In this document: positions 49,732 to 54,396 of the stretch, piece by piece
Layout of the letters: each line of letters starts with the position of its first letter
Numbering within the stretch: the first letter of the stretch is position 1
NCBI GenBank assembly: GCA_030605795.1
Contig: JAUWHR010000014.1
Span: 1-64,000, forward strand
Reading direction: 5' to 3'
Source of the DNA: Anaerolineae bacterium
Lineage (GTDB): Bacteria > Chloroflexota > Anaerolineae > Anaerolineales > E44-bin32
Length of the DNA: 64,000 bases
Translations under genes and position numbers: made by a program
Notes under the pieces: generated by a model
What the model saw: the letters and a program-made list of their open reading frames with translations, nothing else
What the model was told of the DNA's origin: nothing
The model's database searches: none

Positions 49732-50970
49732 TTACTCTTCGGGCGGTAGCAACCTCAGGAAATGTCGCTTGCCAACACGCAGCACCTTTGGTTCATCCAA
49801 TTCGAGAATTTCCTTTGGGTCCTCGACAACCACACCGTCCAGTCGCACACCTCTTTGATCCACTAACCGTCGGGCTTCACTCTTGCTCTTTGTCAATCCC
49901 GCTTCAACTATGATTTCGACTAGCTTTATACCATGTCGTGTATGGAAATCCGGCATCTCCTCCGGTTTTTCCCGCTCCTGAAACACTCGCCGGAAGGCTG
50001 CCTCCGCCGGCTCGACGGATTCCTCCCCATAGTAGATACCGACAATCTCACGTGCCATGCGCATCTTGACATCCCGGGGATGAAGTTCACCCGATTCCAA
50101 TCCGGCTTCGATCTCGTCGATCTCGGTCGGCGTCAAACGGGTCACCAAACGGAAGTAGTCTCCCATTGCGATGTCGGGTACGCTCATAACCTTACCATAC
50201 ATGTCTTCCGGATCGGTTTGGAGCGGGATATGGTTCCCTAACGACTTGCTCATTTTCACCACCCCATCGGTCCCAGGGAGGATACCGAGGATAATGGCAA
50301 TGTTAGGCTTCTCACCCAGGGCTTCCATAAGCTTTCGCGCGGCGGTGACGATGTTGAACAATTGATCTGTTCCCCCGATCTGAACGTCAGTCTTCAAGTG
50401 ATACGCGTCGTACCCTTGCATCAGGGTATAGAAGAACTCGTGCAGATAGATCGGATCCTCTGCCTTCCATCGCTTACGGAAAGCCTCCCGGGTGAGGAAT
50501 TGCTGCAGGGTGAAATGCGAGGCCAACTCAATCAGATCCTGAAAAGTCAGCTTTGAGAGCCAAGTATCATTGTATGCAATACGGGTCTGATTCGGGTCCA
50601 GGATCTTAAATGCCTGCTCGGCATAAGTCTCAGCGTTGAGGGTTGCATCTTCCATGCTGATTTGAGCTCGGACACTATTTTTATCGGAGGGATCGCCGAC
50701 AAGCGAGGTAAACCGACCGATGACAAAGGTCACATCGTGCCCCAATTCCTGGAACTGGCGCATTTTGCGTATCGGGACGGTGTGTCCCAAATGCAGATCA
50801 GAGGTGCGGGGGTCGAAGCCACAATATACCCGCAACTTACGCCCCTCCTTCTCTACCTCAAGCAGGCGCATGCGAAGTTCCTGCGCCATGGCTTGTTTAA
50901 GGGTCTCATCGCCATACTTGGTGCCCTGCATTAGCAGGGAAACTTGTGTATCAAGTTCTGTTTTATTCAC
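49732..50970 (-). CDS. tyrS: Tyrosyl-tRNA synthetase
   Basis: 412 aa, class I TyrRS. It charges tRNA-Tyr in the cytosol. The Rossmann core has RVYCGFDPRTSDLHLGHTVP (HIGH motif as HLGH), QIGGTDQLFNIV and GVVKMSKSLGNHIPL (KMSKS). The C-terminal S4 domain spans about 345-410 (IIVEAGLTKSKSEARRLVDQRGV). The start is GTG at 50970, with GAGGAG 8 nt upstream. It has a leader of about 200 nt with its own promoter and an intrinsic terminator just before the ribosome-binding site, so its expression is probably set by attenuation. Confidence 0.97.
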   Translation of the reverse strand: MNKTELDTQVSLLMQGTKYGDETLKQAMAQELRMRLLEVEKEGRKLRVYCGFDPRTSDLHLGHTVPIRKMRQFQELGHDVTFVIGRFTSLVGDPSDKNSVRAQISMEDATLNAETYAEQAFKILDPNQTRIAYNDTWLSKLTFQDLIELASHFTLQQFLTREAFRKRWKAEDPIYLHEFFYTLMQGYDAYHLKTDVQIGGTDQLFNIVTAARKLMEALGEKPNIAIILGILPGTDGVVKMSKSLGNHIPLQTDPEDMYGKVMSVPDIAMGDYFRLVTRLTPTEIDEIEAGLESGELHPRDVKMRMAREIVGIYYGEESVEPAEAAFRRVFQEREKPEEMPDFHTRHGIKLVEIIVEAGLTKSKSEARRLVDQRGVRLDGVVVEDPKEILELDEPKVLRVGKRHFLRLLPPEE

Positions 50971-51000
50971 CGGCTATGCTCCTCTATTAGAGTGGAGGAT

Positions 51001-51039
51001 TAAAAAAAGTAATCAGCGTTGGCTGCGCAGCCCACGCTG
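51001..51039 (-). terminator. Intrinsic terminator/attenuator in the tyrS leader
   Basis: On the minus strand AGCGTGGGCT-GCGC-AGCCAACGCT forms a 10-bp stem with one G-A mismatch, followed by GATTACTTTTTTTA. It ends about 30 nt before the tyrS start, so it would stop transcription inside the tyrS leader. An upstream segment, CTGCGCGCTCAACGC (51093-51079), can pair with the 5' half of this stem. Confidence 0.8.
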
Positions 51040-51071
51040 GTTTCATCAGAAAAACGGTGACAATGGACAAC

Positions 51072-51158
51072 TCACTCGGCGTTGAGCGCGCAGCAGACTC
51101 CGGAGGTGGGGCGGCAACCGCCCCTGGTATAGATATACCGTCGTGCGCCTAGGACCAT
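51072..51158 (-). CDS. Candidate tyrS leader peptide (28 codons, two Tyr codons)
   Basis: Open frame from ATG 51158 to TGA 51072: MVLGARRYIYTRGGCRPTSG then VCCALNAE. The Tyr codons (TAT at 51137-51135 and 51131-51129) lie about 40 nt before the possible antiterminator strand, and the stop directly follows that strand. This is the geometry of ribosome-mediated attenuation. The ribosome-binding site is weak (GGATTTCCTC). Could be chance within a palindromic repeat. Confidence 0.4.
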   Translation of the reverse strand: MVLGARRYIYTRGGCRPTSGVCCALNAE

Positions 51159-51179
51159 GAGGAAATCCAAATCGATACA

Positions 51180-51209
51180 ATCATATCACATTGATTTTAA
51201 TACCTGCAA
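51180..51209 (-). promoter_or_regulatory. tyrS promoter
   Basis: Minus strand TTGCAG (51209-51204), 18-nt spacer, TATGAT (51185-51180). A start near 51173 gives a leader of about 200 nt in front of tyrS and places the leader ORF about 15 nt from the 5' end. Confidence 0.65.
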
Positions 51210-51263: not shown

Positions 51264-52871
51264 TTACCGTACCCATAATACTATTTCATCCGAGACGATT
51301 TCTGTTGAGAGGGTAACTGCTTCATAGCCATGTTGGATCGCAAAACGAGTAAGTGGTTTTTCAAGTCCACCACGATCTCCAAAGCCAAATCCATCATTTT
51401 TACTCTCAAATCCAACCAGTATCGCGTCTGGCGGATTATTCTCCAAGTAACCGTCTAAGTCCAGATACGAAATTACACCGTACTCCTCTCTCTTTTCCTC
51501 AGATAACAAGAAAGCAGTCCTCCAGGTGAAGGGACCTGTAGCAAAAGCCTCATAAATATCCAACCCCCCTTCCAGAGGCATAATAGGTGCGAGTGTTAAA
51601 ATTTTTCCTTCACCCAACAAGGATTTAATATCCATTCCAAAATTGTGTACTTGAATAGTGAGCAATTGATTGGGGTGGTTCATCAGTTTAATATCATCAA
51701 AACTAACGATACGAGCACTGCCAATAATTATGGCTGGAAGAAGAGGAATAATAATCAGAAACCAGCTCAACTGCCTCCGTTTACCAAATAAGGTACTGAA
51801 ACCAAAGAATATTCCCAGGATGAGGAATGGGATTGGCGCATAATAATATTGATACCATGAGGGGGTAGGACCAAATGACCCGATTAAAAGGAACAAGCTT
51901 AACCCAAAGGCAAACACAAGCGACATTTTAGTGCTCGTTTTCGTCACCATGCTCTTCACGGTAGCGGTGACCATAATGACGAACAAACCCAGGTAAAGGA
52001 GCATATTCAGGGGAGAGGAAATCACATCAGTAAGAAAGTAGATTATTTTCCCCGCAATTGTCATACCAGTTCGGTGTCTCAATAATTTCCGATAGACAGG
52101 ATTTAGTTTTGGATAAATAACATTTCCGAAGATAAAGAATTTTGGATTAGCGATGAATAATACAATAGCTGGTAATAACCCCAGAAACACCCCAATAGAA
52201 AATGCAATGATATGCAAGTGCTTTGAAGTTCTCGACCGTTGGGAAGGAAAAATAAGAAAAGCCCCGAGATATGGGATTATTACCGTTGCATAAGACAGAC
52301 GAGCCCCAATTGCCAGCCCTAAGAAAATCCCGCTCAAGAAGACCTTTCGCGTTGAAATATCTTGATTATCGTAACGATAGAGGAATGCAAACGATAATAG
52401 GACAAACAAGGTTGGAAGATCATGGTTCCATGCCTTACCACTGACACTGTCAAAGAGTGGGTTCGTTATTAGTAGGACTACACAAGCAACTGCTAGTAGG
52501 TTTCGGATAAGTGAACCTTGACCATAAAAATGCTGATACGTGATATAGAAGAGTATCCCTGCACTTATAGTTGCACAAACTACGGAAAAAACTCGGGCAC
52601 CTAATAGACAATAATTTGTTAGTTTAAATAATAATGCGTAGATTAAAACCAGATTAGGCATATGATGAAATGGATAATCTATGTAAGGAAAAGAAAACTG
52701 ATCTGCAAGTAGTTTCCCACCGGCTACAAATTGATGCTCATCATGATTTATTTCCGCGTTCAGGGATTTGCTGAGAAGTAGAATGAAAATAGCTAAAAAG
52801 AACAACGAAACACCGATAAATTGAAGTACTCTTGATGAGATTCGTAGTCCGGGTTTCCACTTCTTACTCAT
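51264..52871 (-). CDS. GT-C-type membrane glycosyltransferase (ArnT/PMT-like), AT-rich
   Basis: 535 aa with about 10-12 membrane segments and a soluble C-terminal part of about 120 residues. After the first span comes AEINHDEHQFVAGGKLLAD, the acidic loop 1 motif typical of GT-C enzymes that use polyprenyl-phosphate sugars. The spacing to YIDYPFHHMPNL is also characteristic. The soluble end contains FESKNDGFGFGDRGG, with no named domain. Base composition is lower in GC than the flanking genes, so acquisition is possible. Likely adds sugars to lipid or protein outside the membrane; substrate unknown. Confidence 0.72.
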   Translation of the reverse strand: MSKKWKPGLRISSRVLQFIGVSLFFLAIFILLLSKSLNAEINHDEHQFVAGGKLLADQFSFPYIDYPFHHMPNLVLIYALLFKLTNYCLLGARVFSVVCATISAGILFYITYQHFYGQGSLIRNLLAVACVVLLITNPLFDSVSGKAWNHDLPTLFVLLSFAFLYRYDNQDISTRKVFLSGIFLGLAIGARLSYATVIIPYLGAFLIFPSQRSRTSKHLHIIAFSIGVFLGLLPAIVLFIANPKFFIFGNVIYPKLNPVYRKLLRHRTGMTIAGKIIYFLTDVISSPLNMLLYLGLFVIMVTATVKSMVTKTSTKMSLVFAFGLSLFLLIGSFGPTPSWYQYYYAPIPFLILGIFFGFSTLFGKRRQLSWFLIIIPLLPAIIIGSARIVSFDDIKLMNHPNQLLTIQVHNFGMDIKSLLGEGKILTLAPIMPLEGGLDIYEAFATGPFTWRTAFLLSEEKREEYGVISYLDLDGYLENNPPDAILVGFESKNDGFGFGDRGGLEKPLTRFAIQHGYEAVTLSTEIVSDEIVLWVR

Positions 52872-52956: not shown

Positions 52957-54396
52957 TTATGGTTCCGATAAGCATAATCCACATAATTTATCCCACCCCT
53001 GCAATATACCTTCACTGATCACCTCGACATCCTCTTGTTTAGCCTCAACCAGAGGCTGCCTCTGTCCACCTATGAGTTCGATTGGGTCTCCATGCACGAC
53101 GGAGACCAGGCACCGACCAAGAAGGCAATCCACAGCATAGGTACCATCCTCCGCGATGAATCCCATCACCCCGGCACCGAAACCGATGAGCGAAATAGTC
53201 TTTCCCTCCACGGTGACCTGGATCTCGCGATCCCCCTCACCGCGCACGACAAGTAGTCTCCCAGATATCAAATCTAAAACGGTACACATCGTCAGCGATA
53301 GCTGGTCCCCACTCGACGTTTCAGGATGTGGATCAAGGATCGTAAGCAGAGTTCGGCTCCCACCAGTCAGGTAGAAGGATGTGGCTGAGAGATCGAATGA
53401 GCCCTCATAGGTTGTCTGCAAGGCCAAACGGGACTCATTTAATGCGGTTAAAGTCGCTCCAGCTGGAATTGTCCCCAGGTTACTTACCATGCCGATAGAT
53501 TCCCCCTCCACGGCTTTGTCCACCCTCACCGAACCATGTATCAGAACCGCATAGCCATAGTCTACCGGTGGGGGAGGAATCCGACTTTCCCGGAGCCAAT
53601 TGATCCCCACCACGCTTAAGGCGAGGACCAACAGAACTCCAACAATGGCGGCTGAGATTGTAACTGGTCCTCGACCCCCTCGCGCCCGACCTCCTGGCAA
53701 CTGCACAACCACTACAGATACATTGTCGTCTACGTCCCGCCCCATGGCGATGCTGAGCAAGTGACGGGCTGCCTCTAATGGCGTGTTTCCTTCGACATAG
53801 TCTGCGATGTCCTCCGGATGAACGAAAGGTTTCCCATCCTCCGGGCTGACCCGGGTCAGGCCATCTGAAGCGAGCACGACACTATCGCCAGGATTGAGGG
53901 CCATTCCCTGTGGATCCCCAGTTTGAATAACCGGTGGATCTAAGGAGCCCAGCAGTTGATCCCCCACACCAGTTAATGGGATGGCTCGTCCCTCTCGCAC
54001 CAAGACAGCCATGGTGTGGCCCACCTGTGCGTAGAAAAGTCGATCTCTCCATATAGCGATGGCAGTTAGGGCGACCTCCCCCAACCCTTCTCCGCTTATG
54101 CTGGCATCCATCAAGAACCGACCGCTATCTTCCAATTGACCACGCAGCACAGAATTCAGATCACGATCGCGCGAGCGGGTTACTCCTTCAAACAGCTGCG
54201 CTACCACCATCTCGGCTGACTCACCTGCTTGGGGGTGTCCTTCGCCATCGGCCACAACCGCCAAGATAAGGTCCTGGCCAACACCCGTGCGTACAGTCTC
54301 AACCCTTACTCTGTCCTGTTGTGGGAGTTCAGGTGAAACCGCCCCTGGGCTTCGTTCGCTTGCATATGATCCCCGTTGGCGGCGAATGGACATCAT
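52957..54396 (-). CDS. PP2C-like protein with membrane span and extracytoplasmic FecR-like domain (divergent phosphatase)
   Basis: 479 aa. The cytosolic PP2C-like domain (about 30-235) has VVADGEGHPQAGESAE, QVGHTMAVL, VVLASDGLTRVS and DVDDNVSVVVVQLP. Compared with active PP2Cs the first metal motif is altered: no clear RxxNED, DGEGH for DGMGG, and GHTM in place of GDSR. A membrane span follows (ISAAIVGVLLVLALSVVGI). The outer part (about 280-450) is beta-rich and FecR-like, with the pair VDCLLGRCLV and a final CGLC. Paralogue of the next gene. Activity may be lost or weakened. Confidence 0.85.
   Translation of the reverse strand: MMSIRRQRGSYASERSPGAVSPELPQQDRVRVETVRTGVGQDLILAVVADGEGHPQAGESAEMVVAQLFEGVTRSRDRDLNSVLRGQLEDSGRFLMDASISGEGLGEVALTAIAIWRDRLFYAQVGHTMAVLVREGRAIPLTGVGDQLLGSLDPPVIQTGDPQGMALNPGDSVVLASDGLTRVSPEDGKPFVHPEDIADYVEGNTPLEAARHLLSIAMGRDVDDNVSVVVVQLPGGRARGGRGPVTISAAIVGVLLVLALSVVGINWLRESRIPPPPVDYGYAVLIHGSVRVDKAVEGESIGMVSNLGTIPAGATLTALNESRLALQTTYEGSFDLSATSFYLTGGSRTLLTILDPHPETSSGDQLSLTMCTVLDLISGRLLVVRGEGDREIQVTVEGKTISLIGFGAGVMGFIAEDGTYAVDCLLGRCLVSVVHGDPIELIGGQRQPLVEAKQEDVEVISEGILQGWDKLCGLCLSEP

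Follow-up and report, generated by a model that had tools for sequence, protein, structure and literature searches.

The textbook cases of classical transcription attenuators come from Proteobacteria, and further ones occur in Actinobacteria and Firmicutes. A survey devoted to the attenuators of synthetase genes was reportedly published by Lopatovskaya et al. in 2010 (Mol Biol 44:128). Streptomyces trpS and leuS and gamma-proteobacterial pheST are controlled by attenuators, and tyrosine genes are under T-boxes (PMC1262725). His leader peptides have been described at hisS/hisZ in bacilli, in a 2010 paper to which no earlier leader-peptide systems were known outside Proteobacteria and Actinobacteria (PMC2965389). 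The amino-acid attenuators catalogued in a comparative survey of 2013 respond to His, Leu, Thr, and Trp, as well as to Ile/Val and Phe, but Tyr is absent; the survey suggested that such attenuators originated in gamma-proteobacteria (PMC3766115). No leader-peptide attenuator of the trp/his style from Chloroflexota was found in the open-access literature searched, and no tyrS attenuator was found either there or in Rfam.

The locus described here lies in a 64,000-nucleotide stretch of DNA (the window) from a draft genome, 80% complete, of a member of the Chloroflexota order Anaerolineales. As judged from its leader and those of its relatives, the tyrS gene is very probably governed by a Tyr-specific, ribosome-mediated transcription attenuator of the trp/his type. 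The logic is the same as in the trp/his attenuators; what is new is the amino acid, the gene, and the phylum, with a possible gene-tail form. As at E. coli trp and his (trpL, hisL), a leader peptide with cognate codons, segments that could pair as 1:2, 2:3, and 3:4, and a terminator precede the first gene, and the E. coli trp leader behaves similarly in a nascent folding test. Unlike those operons, this locus has a synthetase target, Tyr as its amino acid, and no sequence relation to them; the Tyr codons come early in the ORF and are separated from segment 2 by a stable hairpin, and in most relatives the transcript appears to be leaderless, or nearly so. Leader-peptide attenuation of aminoacyl-tRNA synthetase genes is shared with gamma-proteobacterial pheMST and Streptomyces leuS/trpS, although these concern Phe, Leu, and Trp in other phyla and have no homologous leader (PMC1262725). 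The His leaders of bacilli hisS/hisZ likewise place a leader peptide where a T-box would stand before a synthetase gene or its paralogue, but for histidine and in Firmicutes (PMC2965389). The Firmicutes tyrS T-box (RF00230) acts on the same gene with the same signal (tRNA-Tyr charging) and output (transcription readthrough); it reads the tRNA directly, however, and none was found at tyrS here. Finally, S. meliloti trpL also has a leader ORF that begins at the transcript 5' end, but it is a Trp leader of an alpha-proteobacterium (PMC7298713), and the leaderless start proposed here derives from the -10 box only.

All parts of the locus lie on the minus strand. The regulated gene, tyrS (49732-50970), encodes tyrosyl-tRNA synthetase (TIGR00234, 347 bits; Pfam tRNA-synt_1b, 3e-68, and S4), starts with GTG at 50970, and has its nearest named relative in an Anaerolineae MAG at 87% identity; Thermanaerothrix is among the named members of the order that were surveyed. 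Farther upstream lie genes for a PMT_2 glycosyltransferase-like protein (51264-52871) and a SpoIIE/PP2C-like phosphatase (52957-54396). The preliminary description had proposed a promoter, TTGCAG-N18-TATGAT, and this sequence is present as given, with the -10 hexamer at 51180-51185 and the -35-like hexamer at 51204-51209; the latter, however, matches TTGACA at only 3/6 positions, and the nearest relative (L003) has TTGCTG in its place. Transcription is predicted to start near 51173. The 28-codon ORF reported earlier, MVLGARRYIYTRGGCRPTSGVCCALNAE, runs from ATG 51158 to TGA 51072 (51072-51158), has homologues in 16 more family genomes, and indeed carries two Tyr codons near its start, both TAT, at codon 8 (51135-51137) and codon 10 (51129-51131). 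Upstream of the ATG, an in-frame TTG at 51170 occupies the position at which the leader of the nearest relative starts with ATG, so the peptide may begin there and comprise 32 aa.

Two elements absent from the preliminary description flank the Tyr codons. Segment 1 (51140-51148), upstream of them, can pair in folds with segment 2 when the Tyr codons are free of ribosomes. The internal hairpin GGGGCGG-TTG-CCGCCCC (51108-51124), seen in folds and in the family alignment, lies within the ORF between the Tyr codons and segment 2; this GC-rich element is kept in most family leaders and is possibly a polymerase pause hairpin or a spacer. Segment 2, the antiterminator strand (51078-51101), ends immediately ahead of the leader stop codon. 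It includes the stretch CTGCGCGCTCAACGC (51079-51093), to which pairing with the terminator had been ascribed; that stretch is present and pairs, but the best pairing is longer, joining 51101-51078 to nearly the whole terminator hairpin at -28.6 kcal/mol (p = 0.025 versus shuffles). The terminator hairpin CAGCGTGGGCTGCGCAGCCAACGCTG provides segments 3 and 4 (51014-51039). The claim of a strong terminator 30 nt ahead of tyrS holds for its stability (-14.8 kcal/mol) and for its T7 tract, which ends about 30 nt ahead of tyrS, but the tract begins 5 nt past the stem. A strict consensus scan of the window calls neither promoter nor terminator, because the -35 box scores only 3/6 and the T tract is displaced from the stem, and the case for an attenuator is therefore comparative. 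Taken alone, the window leader is unremarkable in folding energy (MFE z -1.54), and a permissive Rfam search of it returns chance matches only. A dispersed repeat was considered and ruled out, because the leader is single copy in its genome.

Comparison across genomes reveals a conserved ORF with its Tyr codons, a conserved terminator, an alternative pairing, linkage to tyrS, and absence of a T-box. A leader of the same design is found at 17 of the 23 family tyrS loci with readable upstream DNA (13 genera), with peptides such as MPSRTFFPQARRYIYVRGDRAPALMMPRALGAL, MSRRHFPRARQYIYVGGLLPPTTRRARGEG, and MRKNGLKGRCSYIYHWGVDRPLCTFGCMFPG; the Tyr codons are kept, as expected of the attenuator proposed earlier. 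At the other six loci (L008, L010-L013, L020) the leader is absent, and this minority of the family has no partial version of the device but lacks it altogether. For codon counts, the 17 family leaders were aligned with three from other classes, giving 20 YIY-type leaders. The second Tyr position is Tyr in 20/20, varying only between TAT and TAC, and the first is TAT or TAC in 18/20, the two exceptions reading MIY and TIY. The residue between them (51132-51134 in the window) is Ile, or Val in two cases, across all 20 leaders, including those of other classes; codon sensing, which needs Tyr alone, does not require this retention. Outside the Tyr codons, a codon-position substitution test (15/13/16) detects no coding signature in the leader, and such drift of the remaining peptide is as expected if the regulatory codons alone matter.

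The flanking elements are also conserved. In each of the 16 remaining family leaders, a TATGAT/TATCAT/TATAAT-like hexamer lies 6-9 nt ahead of the start codon, a spacing that would imply transcripts that are leaderless or nearly so. In the window, the -10 box is 21 nt from the ATG and 9 nt from the in-frame TTG. The terminator hairpin is conserved in 17/17 family leaders, with an imperfect T tract in several, the window included, and poor tracts in L003, L004, and L029. On the terminator 5' arm, GCGTGG (51030-51037 in the window) does not change across the 15 family leaders of the alignment, whereas the 3' arm varies by G-U and other changes.

The alternative pairing is kept in relatives with changed sequences. 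Segment 2 aligns with gaps, and conservation of the 2:3 pairing was judged by swap, shuffle, and state tests. Over the family set, native 2:3 pairing exceeds swapped 2:3 pairs (p = 0.008) and native 1:2 pairing exceeds swapped pairs (p = 0.006); plain shuffles give p values of 0.015 and 0.003, respectively, placing the 1:2 hairpin at p = 0.003-0.006. This hairpin, which in trp/his attenuators gives termination when the leader is untranslated, is thus supported over the set but not for the window. Single-leader p values for pairing are mostly above 0.05 in the family, as such tests are weak when the regions are short and GC-rich. The antiterminator and the terminator exclude each other, and the 5' strand of the antiterminator lies close to the end of the leader ORF, although the antiterminator is weak or missing in some relatives (L006, L014).

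Folding with defined ribosome positions suggests how the choice could be made. In these computations, the leader is folded with the ribosome footprint masked at the first Tyr codon (Tyr1), the second (Tyr2), or the stop codon. For the window leader by itself, readthrough is predicted when no ribosome is present (terminator probability 0.10), and the probability is 0.00 at Tyr1, 0.00 at Tyr2, and 0.96 at the stop codon, a switch between stalled and completed translation that agrees with the trp/his logic put forward in the preliminary description. In the stalled state, the terminator 5' arm pairs better with native than with shuffled segment 2 in 15 leaders (Fisher 1.6e-4, a value that leaves phylogeny in by treating related leaders as independent). 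In nascent RNA of 15 non-redundant leaders, folded before the terminator 3' arm exists, the 5' arm is paired with segment 2 at a mean of 0.39 with no ribosome, 0.66 at Tyr1, 0.54 at Tyr2, and 0.14 at the stop codon. For the E. coli trp leader, a near-identical test whose pairing window differs slightly yields 0.00, 0.28, 0.53, and 0.00 from no ribosome through to the stop codon. Part of the drop at the stop codon follows from the method itself, since a ribosome footprint there hides segment 2; the informative controls are the shuffles and swaps. When the full leader is folded to equilibrium, 16/17 family leaders retain the terminator at almost all ribosome positions. The E. coli trp control likewise returns a terminator probability of 0.95 in all ribosome states; equilibrium dominance of the terminator in relatives is therefore non-discriminating, and this probability was dropped as a criterion across relatives.

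The device extends well beyond the family. A survey of the order covered 80 further genomes from 13 other families, in which 57 tyrS upstream regions contain a terminator hairpin of -10 kcal/mol or better. In 41 of these 57, an ORF that ends no more than 60 nt before the terminator has Tyr-Tyr or Tyr-x-Tyr among its last 14 codons, where shuffles lead one to expect 2.8 (range 0-5), and matches come from 8 of the 13 sampled families, besides the window's own. Tyr is by far the strongest signal, the next excesses being small (Glu, 8 versus 2.0 expected; Ile, 11 versus 5.8), and three Tyr in four codons are found in 16/47 regions versus 0.03 expected. Examples include MNALAYSYYPLP, MNTCTHAYYYLP, MFIHRPFSYYYSRA, and MNAGFTSLYYYSHP; most leaders elsewhere in the order carry YYY, YY, YFY, or YxYY with no common peptide context. 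Their stop codon is usually 18-29 nt from the terminator, and in most members of the order a clean T tract directly follows the hairpin. The order survey and the named genomes together provide 72 distinct Tyr leaders. In 42/72, the stretch that spans the stop codon and continues past it pairs with the terminator better than a shuffled spacer does at p < 0.05 (Fisher 2.5e-36, again with related leaders counted as independent). Named loci such as L054, L055, L057, and L065 are plain cases, with a short 5' UTR only at tyrS. Directly upstream of tyrS, L102, L114, and L200 have tRNA genes; in L102 and L114 these form a run of three.

Many Anaerolineales have no free-standing leader, and in these the preceding gene ends in YY(Y)[AS]R-stop just ahead of the tyrS terminator; such fused loci include L091, L104, L100, and L113. 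The gene in question, noted upstream of tyrS in L051 and L052 as well, has no Pfam match and encodes a putative membrane protein of roughly 170 residues. Where a separate leader is present, the homologous protein has another C terminus (WVCS, WVCRR, ILYSRP, TIYKRS), and this distribution suggests that the tail of a protein-coding gene may double as an attenuator leader. A broader proposal, that the C-terminal tail of the membrane protein is a Tyr sensor for tyrS and that free-standing YIY/YYY leaders replace tails without a Tyr run, seems to us evenly balanced between true and false.

Elsewhere in the phylum and class, a YIY/YVY leader with a terminator is present in 3 of 40 tyrS upstream regions surveyed. 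Two of these (G136 and G148) share the leader MDFLSTRGFKY[VI]YRRRAQGPGV[EG]A, and the third (G144) has MRGHAPLTHNRATHRVRQYIYLWRARGWGAIS, with AGGAG ahead of its start. The three fall in two lineages with the motifs KYIY/KYVY and QYIY, and their full-length folds give terminator probabilities of 0.00 at Tyr1 and 0.92-0.99 at the stop codon. Searches centered on these two other-class lineages found no further relatives among the genomes covered. Both common descent and convergence are compatible with the leaders outside the class.

T-boxes are used by the same organism at other genes. Seven T-box matches are found in the window's genome, two above the Rfam cut-off and five below it at about E 1e-9 or better, on contigs C86, C60, C6 (66563-66830, just past the window), C94, C89, C84, and C59. 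Judged by eye from the neighboring ORFs, the genes that follow them are pheS, valS, serS, thrS, leuS, an ileS/alaX-like pair, and a creatininase-like gene. Upstream of tyrS, no T-box model (RF00230) was matched at any locus tested, in agreement with the earlier remark that no T-box signature is seen; nor did the Rfam amino-acid leader families (Trp, His, Leu, Thr, Phe) give a gathering-score match there in any scan. Trp leader peptides were found ahead of trpS at none of four loci. In one family relative (L030), trpS is preceded by a T-box-like GGTGGCACCGCG and a terminator, as read by eye; on this basis, the role that a leader peptide has for Tyr seems to fall to a T-box for Trp.

From these features we infer translation of the leader, ribosome stalling, termination, and a response to tyrosine, which would be connected as follows. 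The leader ORF would start at or very near the transcript 5' end and be translated while RNA polymerase is making the leader. With ample charged tRNA-Tyr, the ribosome would pass the Tyr-Ile-Tyr codons to the stop codon and cover segment 2; the terminator (3:4) could then form, and tyrS expression would go down. When charged tRNA-Tyr is scarce, the ribosome would stall on the Tyr codons, disrupting segment 1 and freeing segment 2, which could pair with the emerging terminator 5' arm. The terminator would thereby be prevented, tyrS transcribed, and TyrRS raised.

Several other readings of the same features have to be weighed. The YIY sequence could act as a nascent peptide that, like TnaC with tryptophan, arrests the ribosome when free tyrosine or some other ligand is present, so that stalling would not simply reflect a shortage of charged tRNA. 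The retention of Ile or Val between the Tyr residues of every YIY-type leader and the recurrence of YIY outside the class would suit a peptide motif, but the varied Tyr runs of most order leaders, which lack a common context, point to codons rather than a motif, and both the MIY and TIY variants and the drift of the remaining peptide speak against arrest, which we regard as quite unlikely. It is very unlikely, too, that the leader acts on tyrS translation or mRNA processing, through sequestration of the ribosome-binding site or an RNase site, instead of on termination. The window hairpin lies at some distance ahead of the tyrS start, a clean T tract directly follows the hairpin in most of the order, and folds show no pairing with the tyrS ribosome-binding site, although the poor T tracts of several family leaders and the failure of the strict terminator scan on the window would fit such a mode.

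A more skeptical reading holds that the terminator is constitutive or belongs to the upstream gene, that the small ORF is a chance or unrelated one, and that tyrS is unregulated here. Such a reading could draw on the dominance of the terminator at equilibrium in most relatives and on the lack of a coding signature by the codon-position test. It is made highly improbable by the 15-fold to hundreds-fold enrichment of Tyr clusters with no comparable excess for other amino acids, by the conserved antiterminator pairing, and by the leader's own -10 box at a fixed distance. A T-box or another tRNA-binding riboswitch at tyrS might be anticipated, given the T-boxes at other genes of this genome, most of which encode synthetases, and the classic status of tyrS as a T-box target in Firmicutes (PMC1262725). 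A T-box would not fit into so short a leader, however, and at none of the tyrS loci tested does an Rfam regulatory family score above threshold, leaving this possibility with almost no probability.

Ribosome-mediated attenuation at tyrS across a Chloroflexota order, beside T-boxes in the same genome, would add an amino acid and a phylum to those served by leader peptides, and it would argue for repeated emergence of the device. The dozens of differing leaders form a natural set for studying how leaderless and gene-tail leaders sense tRNA charging. If the membrane-protein tail is indeed a sensor, Tyr-specific attenuation of tyrS would be an old and repeatedly re-formed Chloroflexota device.
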